This document shows, piece after piece, positions 1,682-9,297 of a stretch of 29,749 nucleotides of DNA. The first letter of the stretch is position 1, and each line of letters starts with the position of its first letter. The DNA is from a virus: positions 1-29,749 of IMG/VR virus record IMGVR_UViG_3300050821_015002; one strand, written 5' to 3'. Both the position numbers and the translations under genes were made by a program. The notes below the pieces were generated by a model. The model saw nothing but the letters and a program-made list of their open reading frames with translations, was not told where the DNA came from and did no database searches.

Positions 1682-1990
1682 TTAATTGTAGAAGGTGTAG
1701 TTGTATGTCGACGTATCCAAGGCAGTCCCAGCGACGTGGAAACCAGTCCCGGGGGTGACCGTCACAAGGTTAGGATACGCCCCAACCGTCCCTCCGACTG
1801 TCTTCAAGCCGAAGACAAACGTGGAGTTTGCCGTAACCGCAGGAGCCGCGACCACAACGGGCGTAGCCCCATTCATTACGAAGGTTCCCGAATGTCCCGC
1901 GACTTGCTCGGCTCCACCAAGAGCAGTTTGCAAAGCTGCGAGGTCAGAGGCGTCTAGCTGCAGATTCGGTGAATCGACTACATATGGCAT
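1682..1990 (-). CDS. Small phage structural-type protein (102 aa)
   Basis: The start has AGGAG 10 bases upstream. The N-terminus is an acidic helix; the C-terminal two thirds are beta-rich with STFVFGLKTVGGTVGA and TVTPGTGFHVAGTALDTSTY, ending in aromatic residues. This small-domain style recurs in phage structural genes and carries no assigned function that I know. The gene lies in the leftward operon between the capsid and the fibre. Confidence 0.7.
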   Translation of the reverse strand: MPYVVDSPNLQLDASDLAALQTALGGAEQVAGHSGTFVMNGATPVVVAAPAVTANSTFVFGLKTVGGTVGAYPNLVTVTPGTGFHVAGTALDTSTYNYTFYN

Positions 1991-2019: not shown

Positions 2020-2496
2020 CTACTTCTTGACTGGAGCTGCCGGTGCTAGCGGGGCCAGCGGAACCGTACTCACTACTGGGGAAGTAGTAGGAGTAGCAGT
2101 AGCAGCTCGCGGAGGAGCATCCGACTCCGCCTCAACAGGCTCGCTTCCGTGTACTTTAGCCCCAGGCAGCGCGACGCCGGAGATCTGTGGGCCAATCGGC
2201 TTGTTGGGGTCGATCGTCTTGCCCGTAGCAGCCGCGACCCGCTGAGCCGTGAGCAAGGTCTGTGCGTCGGCATCCTTCGCAGCGGTCGCTTCGTCAGTGA
2301 CGGGTATAAAGCGATCCTTGAACGCCGAGAACTGCGCATCGGTAAGCTTCACAATGTCGCCGACCGAAGCCGTAACGTGGGAGTCGTTGAACTCGTCACC
2401 TGAGGTATCGTCAGTGTTACGAGGAACGAAGTTAGGATTCGGGACATAGTGAGTCCCTTGCACAAGACGGTATTCTTTCGTTGGTGCCTTAGCCAT
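2020..2496 (-). CDS. Hypothetical protein after the capsid gene (158 aa), possible head completion protein
   Basis: The ATG at 2496 is chosen over a GTG three codons upstream because AAGGAG lies 8 bases before it. The N-terminal half is soluble and acidic (EYRLVQGTHYVPNPNFVP, DIVKLTDAQFSAFKDRF). The C-terminal 50 residues are a low-complexity Ala/Pro/Thr tail ending in PVKK. The gene directly follows the major capsid gene, so a head or neck role is possible, but no catalytic or fold signature is visible. Confidence 0.7.
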   Translation of the reverse strand: MAKAPTKEYRLVQGTHYVPNPNFVPRNTDDTSGDEFNDSHVTASVGDIVKLTDAQFSAFKDRFIPVTDEATAAKDADAQTLLTAQRVAAATGKTIDPNKPIGPQISGVALPGAKVHGSEPVEAESDAPPRAATATPTTSPVVSTVPLAPLAPAAPVKK

Positions 2497-2554
2497 CAGA
2501 TTCACTCCTTAGAACGCGGGGTTAGCGTGAGTGGGCGAGTATGCGAGTGGTTGG

Positions 2555-3610
2555 TTACGAGAAGTGGGCTATCCCAGATTGGTGAACGTAGTCGTTCTTG
2601 ACTCGGGGAACCATAATCGCCATGACTTTGAAGTTGACAACCATACCACCTTGCTCTTCCCACTCGACTGTGGTCGGCTGCATGCCGTCAACCATGTCGA
2701 CGACGTCCGACGTCATCTGGATGAGCAGCACGTTGGTGGTTGTGAGGTCTTTGGACTCCTTGATCCCCAGGATCCCGGGAATCGCCAGCACACGTTCGAG
2801 AATCGTGCGATCCGAATACGCCTTAAAGTCGGCGCCCATCGCAGTAAACGTTGCTGAGGGAACATACATGTGGTAGGGACCATACATGTTGTTGTTCTTC
2901 AAGGCCTGGATCATCGCGAGTGTATCGGTCACGATCTGCGTACCTGTCGCAGTTGCCCAAGAAGCTGTTACGCTCCCGGTCGCTCGATAGGTAGCTGTAG
3001 TGTAGCCTTGCACAGCGTTGTTGGAGCCGAGCACCGTAGTGCCGGCAAACAACATCGTCTCGATACCCTCGGAGACGATGCGAGCCGACAACTGGGCTTG
3101 CGTAACATCCAGAGGGACGCCGAGGCGTCTGGAGGAATGCAACTGCCGGATGTTGATGTTGAAGTCCTTATGGATGATCGGCAAGGGGAGGGTCAGTAAA
3201 TTGAATTCTTGCCTGTCATTAGGTGTCTGGGAGAGCCCTGACATGTTGATCTCAGCACCGGTCAGCACCGAGATTTGTTCCCAAACGATCTGCGTTACGC
3301 CAAGGGCATCGGGAACGTTGTACGTGAGCCCCATCGAAATGAGGTCCGCAACGCCAACGAGCCGACGCCGAGCGACTTCGATCACGGCCGTATCGTACAA
3401 CTGCCACTCGAGGCGCCTCAAGGTCGCATTCGCGCGAATCCCGTTGTGATACATGAACCCATCGGGGCCCTGCACAGCCGACTCTGGAATCGCGGGTCGA
3501 AGCGCGTTAATACTGAAGCCAGAGCCAAGCAATCGCTTCGCAACTGAGCCTACAGCCGAGGTTCCTCCTGCATTCTGCGTGAGGGCGTCGGCAACTACCA
3601 TTGGATGCAT
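2555..3610 (-). CDS. Major capsid protein (HK97 fold, encapsulin-like family)
   Basis: This 351-aa protein forms the capsid shell. Its position after a protease/scaffold and a decoration protein and its size support the call. The stretch DFNINIRQLHSSRRLGVPLD, followed by a helix reading IVSEGIETMLFAG, resembles phage capsid proteins related to the encapsulin/linocin family. The C-terminal part (DVVDMVDGMQPTTVEWEEQ) fits the last strands of the A-domain. AGGAG lies 10 bases before the ATG. The mature N-terminus may be set by the protease encoded at 4182-6215. I am confident it is the capsid and less sure of the exact Pfam family. Confidence 0.85.
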   Translation of the reverse strand: MHPMVVADALTQNAGGTSAVGSVAKRLLGSGFSINALRPAIPESAVQGPDGFMYHNGIRANATLRRLEWQLYDTAVIEVARRRLVGVADLISMGLTYNVPDALGVTQIVWEQISVLTGAEINMSGLSQTPNDRQEFNLLTLPLPIIHKDFNINIRQLHSSRRLGVPLDVTQAQLSARIVSEGIETMLFAGTTVLGSNNAVQGYTTATYRATGSVTASWATATGTQIVTDTLAMIQALKNNNMYGPYHMYVPSATFTAMGADFKAYSDRTILERVLAIPGILGIKESKDLTTTNVLLIQMTSDVVDMVDGMQPTTVEWEEQGGMVVNFKVMAIMVPRVKNDYVHQSGIAHFS

Positions 3611-3691
3611 GATATTCTAACTCCTGTTGCGCACTAGGCGTAGACCATCGAGGCGCGCGTTAAAGTAGGTAGGTAGGTAGGCGGCGGCTGG

Positions 3692-4135
3692 CTACGTGAG
3701 GGCGATACGAACTCTTGCGATGTTCGCACCCCCCGAATTGTCGAGAGCATCCATCGATACACCGAGAATTGTACCCGATGCGAAGAGCCTCACGCCACCG
3801 GCGCCGTCAGCTTCGACGAAAGCCCCGATCGTGAGCGCAGTTGCTGCGGCTGCAACGTATGCAAGAACCCAGTCGCCAGAAGTGAACCATTCCATCTGGA
3901 CGAGGTCACCACTGACATAGTTGTCATCGATGCCCTTGCCGATGAGTTCGTTCTCCAGCGCGAACAGCTTCGGAGGATGACCACCGGCTGTGCCCCATAC
4001 GGTCACGGTATTAGCCGAACCGAGGAGGCAAATCGAGCCGGGCAAGATCGTCCCCGCAGCGGGGAGCTCGAGGCGAGTACCGATCCCCTTAAGTCGGATA
4101 GTGCGCGGGCTGGCATTAATTGTGATGTCGACCAT
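3692..4135 (-). CDS. Head decoration/stabilisation protein (147 aa)
   Basis: The product is a beta-rich small protein beginning MVDITINASPRTIRLKGIG, with IGAFVEADGAGGVRLFASG and GGANIARVRIALT at the C-terminus. The C-terminal pattern (a quantity brought to a material value, then a variable barrel end) is typical of phage capsid decoration proteins. It lies between the protease/scaffold gene and the capsid gene, the usual place for such a protein. AGGAG lies 6 bases before the ATG. Assignment rests on pattern and order, not on a specific motif. Confidence 0.65.
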   Translation of the reverse strand: MVDITINASPRTIRLKGIGTRLELPAAGTILPGSICLLGSANTVTVWGTAGGHPPKLFALENELIGKGIDDNYVSGDLVQMEWFTSGDWVLAYVAAAATALTIGAFVEADGAGGVRLFASGTILGVSMDALDNSGGANIARVRIALT

Positions 4136-4181
4136 TGAAAACTCCTATCCCAAAGAGGGAGCAAGCGGTTGGTTGTAGCTG

Positions 4182-4829
4182 TTAGGCTGCTGCCTCGCCC
4201 TTTTTCGCCGAACGGTTGTCGGCAATGCCTAGCCGCGGCGGAGGAGCTGCGAACGGCTCGTTCTTCTCGTCGTGCTGCTGTTGTGCATTCACGCGGGCGG
4301 TGTCGACGCCGAAGCCTCCTTGGCCTCCATAGTTGGGGACGACCGCCATCTCAGCGAGGTTCTCCAGCATCGGGAGCTCGAAGGAGTTGAGCTGCTCGTC
4401 GGTGAACTTGTTGCGAGCGTTTGCCTTGATGGAACCAACCAGCTGCGCTTTGCGGTTCGAGTGCATCTTGAGACTCGCCTCAAGCACGGGGCGGAGCTCG
4501 GGAGGAGCAGCTGCGAGGAACTGCTCAAGGGTCTGCGGTTGCGGCTGCGGGGGAGCTGAATTGCCCTTACCGCTACCCCCCGTGAAGTCAGCCTTCGCGC
4601 CCTTCACGGGGGTAGCATCCTCGTCGGCGGGCTTCGTCCCCTTCTTGTTGCTCTTTGCATCGGGCCCGTCATCGTCTTCCTCGTCGTCATCGTCAGCCAT
4701 AGGCTTCTTGGCGTTCGCTGCCGTCTTGGGTTGCCCAGAGTTAGTAGCTGAGGCGGCATTGACAAGCAGTGCAGCTGCTTTCAGTTGGTCTGTAGTGATG
4801 TTGAGGGTAGGTGCATTCGAATTTGCCAT
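4182..4829 (-). CDS. Nested in-frame scaffold protein (215 aa), internal start within the protease gene
   Basis: An ATG at 4829, codon 463 of the protease gene and in the same frame, is preceded by TAAGGAG with a 9-base gap, one of the best SD matches on this strand. It would yield a free 215-aa protein (MANSNAPTLNITTDQ...) containing the acidic linker, a PQPQPQ stretch and the C-terminal helices. This mirrors the lambda C/Nu3 arrangement, where the scaffold is translated from inside the protease gene. Expression is inferred from the ribosome-binding site and precedent. Confidence 0.6.
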   Translation of the reverse strand: MANSNAPTLNITTDQLKAAALLVNAASATNSGQPKTAANAKKPMADDDDEEDDDGPDAKSNKKGTKPADEDATPVKGAKADFTGGSGKGNSAPPQPQPQTLEQFLAAAPPELRPVLEASLKMHSNRKAQLVGSIKANARNKFTDEQLNSFELPMLENLAEMAVVPNYGGQGGFGVDTARVNAQQQHDEKNEPFAAPPPRLGIADNRSAKKGEAAA

Positions 4830-6215
4830 TGGATCACTCTCCTTACTTGCGGTTGCCGTGGTACACAAACTAATAGCGGTCGATAGGTTCACTTGCTTTT
4901 CATCGTCGGCAATCGACCCGTTTTTGGTCTTCGGATCAATGTCGTACGAAGCTCTGTAGTTTTTGCGGGAACCATAGTCACCACTGCCATCCTCCCGCGA
5001 GTAGATGGCGTGCTTGTTAGTGAACCCCGTAAGATAAGGATAGTGTTTGGAGAACTTCGCGTCAAGGGCCGACTGCAGCGAGCTATGTGCATCGTGCGAC
5101 ATCAAGCCATCGGGGAGCGCTAATGCGAGGATTCCTCGAGCAATTGCGTGCTTCTGCGCGATGCTGAGCTTCGGTGGACGATGATTCTTCGGCTTGTTGG
5201 CGCGAATCCCTAAGGCCTCTGCTAATCCGGTGAATCGTGAAAGCAGCGTCGCACGGTCCGTAGCAACTTGTGCAATCTGCTTCTTAGGAGGCGTGATAAC
5301 ATTGCCATCCTCGTCGTATTCCACTTCCCCCGAATCCACCTCGCTATCCCCAGTGCCCGCACCGGTAAGCTCTTGGTCGAAGTCCCAGTCGAGGGTCTCC
5401 CCAAGGGGCGCTTCTTGCGATCCAGCGGACGAACGATCATTAGCGTTGCCAGGTGATGCTGAGGACAAATCCGATGCGGCTTGTTGTCGTGTAGTAGCCA
5501 TGGAGCATTCCTCACATGAGCAGTTGCCAGTAAGTCTATGAACTCGGAAGGTCGATTGGGATTGGGATTGGGTGGTCGGGAGGACGCGCTTGGCGTTAGC
5601 ATACACACCACAGCCATCCTCGATGGAGCAAGCCCCTATAAGATCGCCTGGTAGCAAGGCTAGATGGTCCGGAACGACTCCGCGCCAAATGCCAGCGTAT
5701 TCGGATCCGTCGTAGGCTCCCGGCGAATCCTCAGAGCCCGTAAACAGACCTGTAGATACCTCGACTTTGTCACCGGCTTTGATGTGGGCCAGTAAGTCGC
5801 GGGCCGCCTGAGAGTGATGTTGCATCTTCTGGGGATCGAGCCAAATCTCCATCATAAGCTTGGCATTGGATACTTTGGTATTGAAGATGAAGCCTACCTG
5901 GAAAGCATCAAGCACATCAGGTGAGTCAGACGCCGAAACTCTAATGACCTCTGGGATTACACTAGGGTCGGACTCGATCTCGTCTGTATTCACAACCACC
6001 CAGGGGTGATCTATTGTAACTGGGCGGCCGTTCCACGCGCCTGGGAAGCGCCCGAATTCGGAGGCTAAAGCTAACTCAGGCTGGTTAGCTGTAACACCTT
6101 GAATAACACCTTCAACGAGAGCGACGACGGGGGCTACTATGTAATCCTTACCCGAGAGTTTCTCGGTTCGGTAAGTCCCCGCCGTCGTCGCATTTATGGC
6201 AAGAAATTCACGCAT
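4182..6215 (-). CDS. Capsid maturation protease (DUF2213-like) fused to scaffold (677 aa)
   Basis: Residues about 1-210 look like the DUF2213 class of phage prohead proteases. His70 in VTIDHP, Ser154 in VSTGLF and His184 in VPDHLALLP are the likely active-site region, followed by IGACSIEDGCG. The middle (210-460) is polar and partly helical. The last 215 residues are scaffold-like: very acidic (around residue 500), Lys-rich, Pro/Gln-rich, then a helical capsid-binding-type segment. In such fusions the protease removes the scaffold during head maturation; that role is inferred from the family. The start is reasonable, with TGGAG 11 bases upstream. A strong internal start is annotated separately. 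Confidence 0.8.
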   Translation of the reverse strand: MREFLAINATTAGTYRTEKLSGKDYIVAPVVALVEGVIQGVTANQPELALASEFGRFPGAWNGRPVTIDHPWVVVNTDEIESDPSVIPEVIRVSASDSPDVLDAFQVGFIFNTKVSNAKLMMEIWLDPQKMQHHSQAARDLLAHIKAGDKVEVSTGLFTGSEDSPGAYDGSEYAGIWRGVVPDHLALLPGDLIGACSIEDGCGVYANAKRVLPTTQSQSQSTFRVHRLTGNCSCEECSMATTRQQAASDLSSASPGNANDRSSAGSQEAPLGETLDWDFDQELTGAGTGDSEVDSGEVEYDEDGNVITPPKKQIAQVATDRATLLSRFTGLAEALGIRANKPKNHRPPKLSIAQKHAIARGILALALPDGLMSHDAHSSLQSALDAKFSKHYPYLTGFTNKHAIYSREDGSGDYGSRKNYRASYDIDPKTKNGSIADDEKQVNLSTAISLCTTATASKESDPMANSNAPTLNITTDQLKAAALLVNAASATNSGQPKTAANAKKPMADDDDEEDDDGPDAKSNKKGTKPADEDATPVKGAKADFTGGSGKGNSAPPQPQPQTLEQFLAAAPPELRPVLEASLKMHSNRKAQLVGSIKANARNKFTDEQLNSFELPMLENLAEMAVVPNYGGQGGFGVDTARVNAQQQHDEKNEPFAAPPPRLGIADNRSAKKGEAAA

Positions 6216-6257: not shown

Positions 6258-6692
6258 TTACGTCCCAGCAGTCGGAGTGGACGAAGGAGCGTTGCTTGCT
6301 CCAGTCGCGGACGCAGGAGTTGCAGTTCCGGAAACAGTCGCTGCGGGCGCCGGAGTCGTAGTCGTAGCCGTAGTAGCAGCGGCTGCGAGAGCTGCAGTGT
6401 CCATGCTCTGCAAGGTTGTATTGACAGTGCCAAGAGCCGTAACGGCCGCTGCGACGTCTGCGGGATTGCCAGCAGCAACGGCCGCTTCAAGATCGGTGAA
6501 AGCCGTGTTCATGTCGGTTTGCAATTGGGTGACGAGCGTAGTGAGCGATGCAACTGCGGTATCGAGTGCGGTAGCCATGGAGTTTACCCGTGCGGTGAGA
6601 GCTGCGAGAGATGTCGCAATGGGGGCTAGGGCCAGCTTGAGGGCTGCTTGAAGAGTGGTATCTTCCGAGCTCATGATGATGAAGAATGCCAT
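6258..6692 (-). CDS. Coiled-coil Ala/Thr-rich protein (144 aa), first gene of the capsid operon
   Basis: Residues 10-80 form long amphipathic helices with a heptad-like pattern (LAALTARVNSMATALDTAVA). Residues 90-144 are low-complexity Ala/Thr/Pro/Ser. It is the first gene after the leftward promoter at 6722-6750, 42 bases before the protease. AGGG lies about 9 bases before the ATG. An internal virion, scaffold-associated or head-fibre role is possible; no family was recognised. An in-frame ATG six codons in (MSSED) is an alternative start. Confidence 0.65.
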   Translation of the reverse strand: MAFFIIMSSEDTTLQAALKLALAPIATSLAALTARVNSMATALDTAVASLTTLVTQLQTDMNTAFTDLEAAVAAGNPADVAAAVTALGTVNTTLQSMDTAALAAAATTATTTTPAPAATVSGTATPASATGASNAPSSTPTAGT

Positions 6693-6878: not shown

Positions 6879-7490
6879 ATGACCACAACTACACCTCCGC
6901 CCTCGCTCCTATCAATCCCCATCACTTGGAATACATACGCCCTCATCGATCCCACGCAGCTTCCCGTGGGCCCCCAAGGTGAGCAGGGAGTGCAAGGCAT
7001 TCCGGGACTAGTAGGGCCTGTGGGACCTCCAGGGGCAGCGGGAACTCCAGGGGCGCAGGGTGAACAAGGTGTACAAGGCATCCCAGGCGTTGTAGGGCCA
7101 CAAGGTGCGCCAGGTGCGCCAGGTGCATCCGTAACCACGATGCTTACGCAGCTTGTTTTGCCGTGGGATACCAATACACCTGTGGTTGCGGGCTCGTCCA
7201 TCTTACTCTTGCAGTCCCCATGGATGTCCGCTGAGATCGTGTCAGCCTCCTGCTTCTGTTCGCAAGGCTCCTTCACCATCGAGCTCTTGAACAACGGTGC
7301 GCCGGTGACTGGTTTGTCGGCTGTCCCCGTCAACCAGACGTCGACCACCACCCCTGCTATGGGCGCTAATACGCTTCCGAAGGGGCAAACCACTCCTACA
7401 GTCCCCGCGTTGGTGTTAGTGATCTCCAATGTTGTGGGGCAACCGCTCAACGCGATCCTTCAGATCAACCTCCAAGTGAGCCCGAACTGA
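6879..7490 (+). CDS. Collagen-like repeat protein (203 aa)
   Basis: Residues about 30-85 are Gly-X-Y repeats ([19 protein letters not shown]), the collagen triple-helix pattern found in phage tail and virion proteins as a trimeric stalk. The N-terminus ([18 protein letters not shown]) has no signal peptide. The C-terminal 110 residues are a beta-rich domain ([19 protein letters not shown]) that may be a trimeric head. It lies in the rightward cassette, its stop one base before the next ATG, so it is co-expressed with the beta-helix gene. A fibre role is inferred; host-modifying use is an alternative. Confidence 0.75.
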
Positions 7491-7491
7491 T

Positions 7492-9297
7492 ATGAGGATT
7501 CCAACTCGTTTGCTGCTCGGGGTCGCTTCGGCAGCCCTCCTGCCAGCCTCAGCTTACTCGGCTATAGTCGAGCGCCCATCTCTGCATGGCAACCCAAACT
7601 CAGTATCGGCATACTCAGTCTATCCTAACTGCACCGTGCCCTCAACGACTAGCACCGGCAACAAATGGTATTTCGATCCAGTTGCCGGCCAGACGCCTGC
7701 ATACTACGCCGCTAATCCTCCGGCTACCGGCATCGCTGGCGATCAGCAGCATCCGTGGAACAGCTTGGTCGGCGCGATCAGCGGTCTGTGGGGTACGGCC
7801 AACGTGACTCCCGGCACCACCTATCCTGGCTACAAGCGCCCCTTGCTGTCGAGTATCCCCTACCTCCACTTCACGACTGCTGGTGAGCCCGGTCTAGTCC
7901 CAGGGGAAGCCATCGGGAAAGTTTTTGCCGCTGACAATGTTGGAAACCCTCCAATCCATCCAGGTGACACTCTTCTGCTGATGACGGGAGACTATGGACC
8001 GATTCAGATCGGAGCTCCTAATCTGGAGACAACCAATTCTGATTTTGTGAGGGTTGAGCCGGGGCCAGGTCAGGCACCTATCATCGACAACATACTGGTT
8101 TATGCGTCTACTAAGTGGCTGTTCGACGGCGTTACTTTCCAGAGCATCAGGACCCCCACGACTGGAAGTCAGGCGCTCGTCACCGTCAAGGATGGCGGGA
8201 CTGGGTTCCCCGCAACCGATATCGTCTTTAAAAACATCTTGGCTACTTCCGCTCCCAGTACGGTTGTGGCTACTTGGACGGCAGCGAATTGGTATGCTAA
8301 CGCGCGCACCGGGTTTAGCATTACCGGATCGGCGGGCAGCGGTACGAACGGGGAGCCCTATACAACGTGTGTGTCGATTACCGACTCGCACATCACTAAT
8401 GTCTATATCGGCACAGCCCTGTTCGCCAACAACATCCTGTTCGACCATAACGAAATAGACCATGCAGCTGAGGACATGCTCGACTTCGGAGGGAATAACC
8501 TGATTATCACGCACGTGCGAGAGCACGACGGGGTAACAGCTGGTGATGGCAATCACAATGATGGAATGCAGGGGCAGGCTGGAGCATTAAGCATCGCCGC
8601 GCTCAATGCAGGCGTCAAATACAATCAGTTCATGAATGTCCTGATCGATAGCAATACGGTTATCAGGCGCACGGATCCGAACCTCTCACTCCCGTCTCCG
8701 CAAGGTCTGCAAGGCATCGATGCTTTCGACGCCGACTGGACGAACATCACGGTCACGAACAATGTCGTCATCAGTCGAACATGCTGGGGCATAAGCTTCG
8801 CTAGCGTTCACAATGGTCTGTTCGCTAACAATACCGTCGTCGATGATGGCGACACATTCGTAGTGGAGCCCAACTGCACGTCGACGTTCGCCGTTGGTAA
8901 TAATTCCCACCAAGGGACCGCGACCTCGAATACCCGGATAAGCAACAACCTTGCTGACACGTTCGAGCTCGCTGTCAACGCCACAACCGGTGTCACTGCC
9001 GATCACAACGTCGCCTTGAACTTTTACCAGGGCTTCCAGGGATACATCAACGGCGTCTGGAGCTACCAATGGCCAGCCGGCAAGGATGCTAACGGGAATA
9101 TCGCACCTGCTGCCAATATTCCGTACGCCACGCAGTTCGTATCGTGGCCTTCCTCTCCAACTACGTCTTGGCAATACGATGTGCATCTGCTGCCGGGTTC
9201 AGTGGCTATCGGCGCAGGCACGAGCGGTGGAGTCCTTCCAACAATCAACATCATGGGTGCTACTCGTGTAGCGCCGTGGACAGTAGGGGCTTACTAG
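7492..9297 (+). CDS. Signal-peptide-bearing right-handed beta-helix protein (601 aa)
   Basis: The N-terminus MRIPTRLLLGVASAALLPAS is a classical Sec signal peptide with a likely cleavage after AYSA. The body shows repeated short strands with Asn/Val ladders (ITNVYIGTALFANNILFDHN, ITVTNNVVISRTCWGISF, FANNTVVDDG), the pattern of parallel beta-helix proteins such as pectate-lyase-like enzymes and phage depolymerases. Asp/His-rich turns (HDGVTAGDGNHNDGMQG) could be a polysaccharide-binding or catalytic groove. Virion depolymerases normally lack a signal peptide, so export by the host is unusual and suggests a secreted or cell-surface protein. No catalytic residues can be assigned by eye. Confidence 0.75.
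   Translation: MRIPTRLLLGVASAALLPASAYSAIVERPSLHGNPNSVSAYSVYPNCTVPSTTSTGNKWYFDPVAGQTPAYYAANPPATGIAGDQQHPWNSLVGAISGLWGTANVTPGTTYPGYKRPLLSSIPYLHFTTAGEPGLVPGEAIGKVFAADNVGNPPIHPGDTLLLMTGDYGPIQIGAPNLETTNSDFVRVEPGPGQAPIIDNILVYASTKWLFDGVTFQSIRTPTTGSQALVTVKDGGTGFPATDIVFKNILATSAPSTVVATWTAANWYANARTGFSITGSAGSGTNGEPYTTCVSITDSHITNVYIGTALFANNILFDHNEIDHAAEDMLDFGGNNLIITHVREHDGVTAGDGNHNDGMQGQAGALSIAALNAGVKYNQFMNVLIDSNTVIRRTDPNLSLPSPQGLQGIDAFDADWTNITVTNNVVISRTCWGISFASVHNGLFANNTVVDDGDTFVVEPNCTSTFAVGNNSHQGTATSNTRISNNLADTFELAVNATTGVTADHNVALNFYQGFQGYINGVWSYQWPAGKDANGNIAPAANIPYATQFVSWPSSPTTSWQYDVHLLPGSVAIGAGTSGGVLPTINIMGATRVAPWTVGAY

Follow-up and report, generated by a model that had tools for sequence, protein, structure and literature searches.

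A single gene in the DNA analysed here (the window, 29,749 nucleotides of the viral record IMGVR_UViG_3300050821_015002 in IMG/VR) in all likelihood encodes a capsid-maturation protease fused to a scaffold, with a stronger internal ribosome-binding site and an ATG at 4829 from which the scaffold would also be made as a separate protein. Judged from sequence, this nested protease–scaffold arrangement is a new and widespread case, kept in dozens of distant relatives that include cultured phages. Nested scaffolds are already known from lambda, from Mu and its relatives, and from herpesviruses. The literature that we searched, a set with most subscription papers outside its reach, yielded no account of such a scaffold within a DUF2213 gene.

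An internal start signal within the protease gene

The gene and its proposed nested start (site 2) comprise the following features.

4182..6215, minus strand: full-length protease–scaffold gene (677 amino acids, 71.9 kDa), with homologues in loci L002–L099
6213..6215, minus strand: full-length start codon, with a weak GGAG 11 nt upstream (−5.6 kcal/mol)
4839..4845, minus strand: Shine–Dalgarno (SD) sequence TAAGGAG of site 2 (−9.2 kcal/mol)
4827..4829, minus strand: internal ATG of site 2, in frame, the codon of residue 463; the nested start proposed in a first-pass annotation
4182..4829, minus strand: putative nested scaffold product (215 amino acids, 22.5 kDa)

The minus-strand sequence at site 2 is gcaagTAAGGAGagtgatccaATGgcaaat, in which 9 nt separate TAAGGAG (4845..4839) from the ATG (4829..4827). 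The first-pass annotation had read the in-frame ATG, this spacing and the 215 codons to the stop exactly. The duplex of site 2 with the 16S tail is the strongest among the nine module starts that we scored; the decoration and major capsid protein starts reach −6.8 and −6.9 kcal/mol, and the full-length start ranks among the weaker of the nine. The window holds two copies of TAAGGAG followed after 5–11 nt by ATG, where shuffles lead one to expect 0.29, and 1 of 100 shuffles reached two. In the second copy (window 2494–2511, minus strand), 8 nt separate TAAGGAG from an ATG at 2496, in the gene after the coat gene. That gene is listed from GTG 2505, and ATG 2496 is probably its true start.

The mRNA around site 2 carries unusually little structure, with 196 of 200 shuffles folding as stably or more so, and the start of the coat protein is similar (191 of 200). 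Synonymous shuffling of the site 2 linker of the window gene gives p = 0.016, and random codon choice within this single linker gives p = 0.13. The latter value counts against the window taken alone; the weight of the argument is carried by the family.

The nested segment contains no cysteine or tryptophan, and 18% of its residues are bulky hydrophobic and 17% alanine. In the AlphaFold2 model it is mostly of low pLDDT and disordered-looking, with one confident helical domain, and its earlier description as scaffold-like in composition is a fair one. From its position and predicted structure, we infer that the nested product would act as a scaffold. The surrounding features are as follows.

3692..4135, minus strand: head decoration protein gene, downstream (phrog_766, 1.5e-6)
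2555..3610, minus strand: major capsid protein gene, encapsulin-like, HK97 type (Pfam DUF6260 and Linocin_M18; phrog_771, 5.4e-24; PDB encapsulin chains)
6258–6692, minus strand: coiled-coil-like open reading frame (ORF) of 144 amino acids, Ala/Thr-rich, directly upstream of the protease gene

Portal and terminase genes lie upstream of the protease gene on the same strand. The position of the protease–scaffold gene upstream of the decoration and major capsid genes is that of the lambda C/Nu3 and Mu I/Z-type organisation.

Protease, middle and putative scaffold domains

Three domains are predicted in the full-length protein.

5595..6170, minus strand: protease domain, residues 16–207 (DUF2213; T4 gp21/assemblin fold; pLDDT mostly >90)
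4890..5162, minus strand: middle domain, residues 352–442 (alpha/beta; most AlphaFold2 blocks >90; family-wide profile match)
4344..4529, minus strand: conserved helical C-terminal scaffold domain, full-length residues 563–624 (pLDDT mostly >90; family-wide match to the ‘tail’ profile)

The AlphaFold2 model of the full-length protein, built from a 52-sequence alignment, places both internal starts, at residues 239 and 463, within low-confidence linkers. The protease domain matches DUF2213 (PF09979) at E = 4e-5 (24.1 bits against a cut-off of 22; profile positions 106–154 of 167) and phrog_760 at 1.7e-12. Its best structural match is T4 gp21 (5jbl; Z 11.4, 138 aligned, 3.3 Å), followed by the herpes assemblins of VZV (Z 8.6) and PrV (Z 8.2); Foldseek alone gave a weak match (E 0.012). 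Residues H70, S154, D183 and H184, which include candidates for a catalytic Ser with its His partners, are invariant across the 52 sequences. The Pfam matches, taken up to E = 1, include neither the S49 family nor a protease family of the Mu type. The scaffold model has no match among viral structures at E ≤ 0.001, and a search of solved structures with the protease–scaffold profile returned only 9b40_G (E 0.58). The corresponding Klebsiella phage ZX4 protein gave nothing useful against solved structures.

Conservation of the internal start signal among relatives

Relatives were gathered via the coat protein; a scan of viral contigs that used only the window protease had yielded none. The protease, middle and tail domains were located by profiles. 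In 79 genes, a single ORF that is not truncated by the contig start carries both protease and tail domains; we dropped 23 that were at least 70% identical to a retained gene, which left 56. Thirteen loci lack a profile match, several of them cut before the gene, and others, including L011, L022 and L032, are partial. Loci L093 and L097 were left out of the 56, as their protease and tail domains are not in one ORF.

The linker that precedes the tail domain (the site 2 linker) contains an in-frame ATG with an SD (≤ −5.7 kcal/mol, a threshold set after inspection of the site listing) in 52 of the 56 non-redundant homologues. Three of the other four have a GTG with a strong SD (L014, −12.2; L087, −12.6; L096, −9.1, with an ATG at −5.4), and L036 has only an ATG at −3.9. 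Genes with any such SD–ATG elsewhere are fewer: 17 of 56 for the protease domain, 10 of 56 for the middle domain and 12 of 56 for the tail. Within the site 2 linkers, 62 of 100 in-frame ATGs carry an SD, compared with 905 of 4,592 non-start codons (20%; p = 1e-19, although this and the other family p values overstate independence because homologues are related). A plain GGAG/GAGG/AGGA rule gives 51 of 100 ATGs against 653 of 4,592 non-start codons. There is no excess in the control parts of the genes, where an SD precedes 24 of 195 ATGs (protease), 13 of 96 (middle), 16 of 129 (tail) and 2 of 40 (post-tail). Where no middle domain is recognised (three genes), an SD precedes 6 of 11 ATGs and 74 of 447 other codons.

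The chosen site lies a median of 12 residues past the middle domain and would give a product with a median length of 177.5 amino acids. In 37 of 53 genes the best linker SD is stronger than that of the best N-terminal ATG. Synonymous shuffles of the site 2 linker yield a combined p of 5e-4, with p < 0.05 singly in only 7 of 55 genes, whereas in all four control parts (protease, middle, tail, post-tail) the combined p is 1.0. The test errs on the conservative side, since amino acids are themselves constrained by the SD.

Open mRNA, synonymous conservation and gene fission

Within the same linkers, the mRNA is less strongly folded at site 2 ATGs than around the remaining codons (−4.73 versus −8.22, n = 52, p = 4e-8). 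These ATGs are also less folded than non-start codons that bear an SD (p = 9e-8, 45 paired genes). In genes of the type found in the cultured phage Bas80 (25 sequences, 24 unique, from few lineages; L138 left out), synonymous diversity is zero at codons 353–362 around the SD, against a gene mean of 0.29. The zero-diversity windows around the SD are the only zeros among 465 six-codon windows.

One locus, L097, carries a natural fission. A stop codon splits a gene for protease and middle domains from a scaffold gene that starts with GTG after GAGG, and in its relative L098 the two parts are fused and an internal SD–ATG is present. The fission has one source: the sole other case in the relatives scan, L141, matches L097 at every one of the 2,000 bases compared. 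The L097 scaffold has no match in phages. At 2812–4980 of L097, the protease gene ends after what appear to be two copies of the middle domain, and a hairpin that looks by eye like a terminator lies between the protease and scaffold genes. We dropped L093, which has middle and tail domains without a protease, as a case of fission. There, at 3391–4961, an upstream gene for a membrane-fusion-type protein is joined to the middle of a protease–scaffold gene; the junction looks chimeric and probably is.

Cultured phages

We examined 17 genes from isolates, picked for diversity and not at random; the Brevundimonas phages L002 and L003 were not included (L002 is among the 56). For isolates without a match to the middle profile, the site was chosen by eye as a strong-SD ATG past the protease domain. 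An SD–ATG follows the protease domain in 14 of the 17, including ES18 gp7, Bas80, mEp515, TW1, JBD88b and Pa193. Hardycor1, which has an archaeal host, and Vibrio phage 1.122.A have no clear SD–ATG there, and phiLM21 falls narrowly below the threshold (−5.4 kcal/mol). The predicted products are 114 amino acids for ES18 gp7 (SD −10.0 kcal/mol) and 108 for Bas80_0036 (−7.9 kcal/mol). Both phages share with the window the order of this gene, decoration and coat, as well as the SD–ATG past the protease domain.

The Bas80 protein is 30.8% identical to the window protein over 18% of the latter, and ES18 was reached via Bas80 (28.4% identity). Database records label the protease–scaffold gene as of unknown function in ES18 (L105), as coat protein in Klebsiella phage ZX4 (L103) and as hypothetical protein in Bas80 (L104). 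In the parts of the ES18 and Bas80 records that we examined, no neighbouring gene is annotated as a scaffold. Matches to the Bas80 protein occur in 340 of 50,697 phage records; if our reading is true, the nested start supplies the scaffold for this large phage group. It would also mean that, outside herpesviruses, a protease of the assemblin fold has an in-frame scaffold nested in its gene, including in phages able to infect laboratory E. coli.

Two proposed products from one frame and alternative explanations

We propose that initiation at 6215 would give a minority 72-kDa protease–scaffold fusion and initiation at 4829 a 22.5-kDa scaffold in excess; as the internal site is the stronger one, scaffold should exceed fusion. 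The C-terminal helical domain shared by the two would co-assemble them with coat protein in the procapsid and thereby bring the protease inside. There the protease would cut the scaffold, which could then exit before DNA packaging. At the level of sequence, what is established is the presence of the protease domain and of a conserved internal start signal. The production of both proteins, their ratio, coat binding and cleavage are expected by analogy with the lambda, Mu and herpes systems. It is very likely that two products are made from the one gene, as the first-pass annotation had claimed: the claim is supported by the SD–ATG conservation in the family, the control domains and the mRNA opening, and further backed by the synonymous conservation in related phages and the one natural gene fission.

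Alternatively, only the full-length protein might be made, with the internal SD–ATG unused and the scaffold freed by self-cleavage near the linker, as in the scaffold release of P2 gpO. With a protease fused to a scaffold through disordered-looking linkers, linker cleavage is likely in any case, and herpes pUL26 is described as combining a nested product with a site for release (PMC4498786). However, cleavage needs none of the conserved SD, the ATG or GTG, the codon choice and the open mRNA found there, and the L097 fission places a start codon in this region. We regard production of the full-length protein alone as very unlikely. Somewhat less likely still is that the scaffold comes from its own transcript via an internal promoter, as does herpes UL26.5. 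A promoter-like TTGACG-17-TATCCT (5065–5037, minus strand; 9 of 12 positions match) does lie about 208 nt upstream of site 2. Four promoter-like sites were found against 1.8 (s.d. 1.2) in shuffles, so chance is a likely source, and a separate transcript would need a start at 4829 anyway.

The small ORF at 6258–6692 could instead be the true scaffold, given its place directly upstream and its Ala/Thr-rich, heptad-like sequence. It has no credible homologue among the ORFs of relatives (best E 0.004, to an unrelated ORF), whereas the nested segment is present throughout them, and we consider this reading highly improbable. We give the least credence, close to none, to the SD–ATG as a composition artefact of linkers rich in Glu, Gly and Lys. 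Such linkers do carry an SD at a fifth of non-start codons, and the permutation p for the window linker alone is unremarkable at 0.13. The three-fold SD excess is nevertheless confined to in-frame ATGs; out-of-frame ATGs in the same linkers have none (25 of 182).

Comparison with known systems

In lambda, Nu3 is a nested in-frame scaffold within the protease gene C, shares the C terminus of the protease and precedes the decoration and major capsid genes. The parallel with C/Nu3 drawn in the first-pass annotation holds for this organisation but not for homology. The lambda gpC protease is S49/ClpP-like, whereas the window protein has no S49 Pfam match and carries a DUF2213 protease with the T4 gp21/assemblin fold. 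It also differs in the middle domain between protease and scaffold and in a possible third start. In T4, which provides the best structural match to the window protease domain, the protease gp21 and the main scaffold, core protein gp22, are encoded by separate genes. Herpes UL26/UL26.5 resembles the window in combining an assemblin-fold protease with an in-frame 3′-coterminal scaffold; it differs in that UL26.5 is made from its own transcript, whereas we propose an internal ribosome-binding site. Given DUF2213, the T4 gp21/assemblin fold and the missing S49 match, UL26/UL26.5 is nearer than lambda in protease fold. The herpes scaffold is described as an in-frame 3′-coterminal gene in PMC4498786. 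For lambda, PMC8508860 treats protease and scaffold as one gene, citing Shaw and Murialdo 1980, and mentions ClpP as the template for a lambda-like protease.

In Mu I/Z and the Mu-like phages of P. aeruginosa (PaMx73 gene 27), an in-frame scaffold start with an SD and an 8–9-nt spacer lies in the protease gene (PMC4378225). The window gene is like these in its internal in-frame SD start inside a protease gene and unlike Mu in its protein families. Pa193 gp24 (Pbunavirus), annotated as a head maturation protease, has a protease-like N terminus with a very weak profile match (E 0.58) and an SD of −6.1 at M195. Its residues 286–326 form a helical hairpin under the five-fold vertex that was called a putative scaffold, and its authors were unable to say if gp24 undergoes cleavage (PMC11042391). 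The portion of that paper available to us mentions no internal start in gp24.

A possible third product

A second candidate internal start, site 1, lies in the linker between the protease and middle domains.

5509..5513, minus strand: SD-like GAGGA of candidate site 1 (−6.2 kcal/mol), partly paired in a predicted hairpin
5499..5501, minus strand: internal ATG of candidate site 1, residue 239; would give 439 amino acids, 46.3 kDa (middle domain plus scaffold)

Initiation at 5501 as well would extend our explanation by a third, 439-residue product and does not exclude it; we hold this extension as tentative. In the protease–middle linkers, 31 of 78 in-frame ATGs carry an SD, compared with 18% of non-start codons (p = 1.2e-5) and with 25 of 113 out-of-frame ATGs. 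Site 1 is present in 29 of the 56 genes, with both sites in 26, and its mRNA is opened across the family (p = 9e-5, 24 paired genes). In phage StAshley, AAGGAGG stands shortly before the site 1 ATG (−11.4 kcal/mol). On the other side, 27 of the 56 genes lack site 1, its synonymous test is weak (combined 0.03) and in L097 the middle domain remains with the protease. In the window, the site 1 SD falls partly within the hairpin and the mRNA is not opened (−9.9 versus −8.0). Use of site 1 is possible, with moderate support in the family and weak support within the window, and ‘two products’ may undercount what this gene makes. Perhaps, in this family of assemblin-fold phage proteases, one frame gives three co-terminal products with starts at domain boundaries. 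Such a gene would be the counterpart, at the level of translation, of herpes UL26/UL26.5, with which it may have a common origin; we lean against this view.

Other features of the window

Near the coat gene, a 102-residue ORF (1682–1990, minus strand) scores narrowly over the cut-off against a K1-capsule lyase C-terminal domain (PF24146, E 3.4e-6), an odd location for such a domain. At 6879–9297, on the plus strand and thus opposite the head genes, a collagen-like protein is followed by a beta-helix protein.
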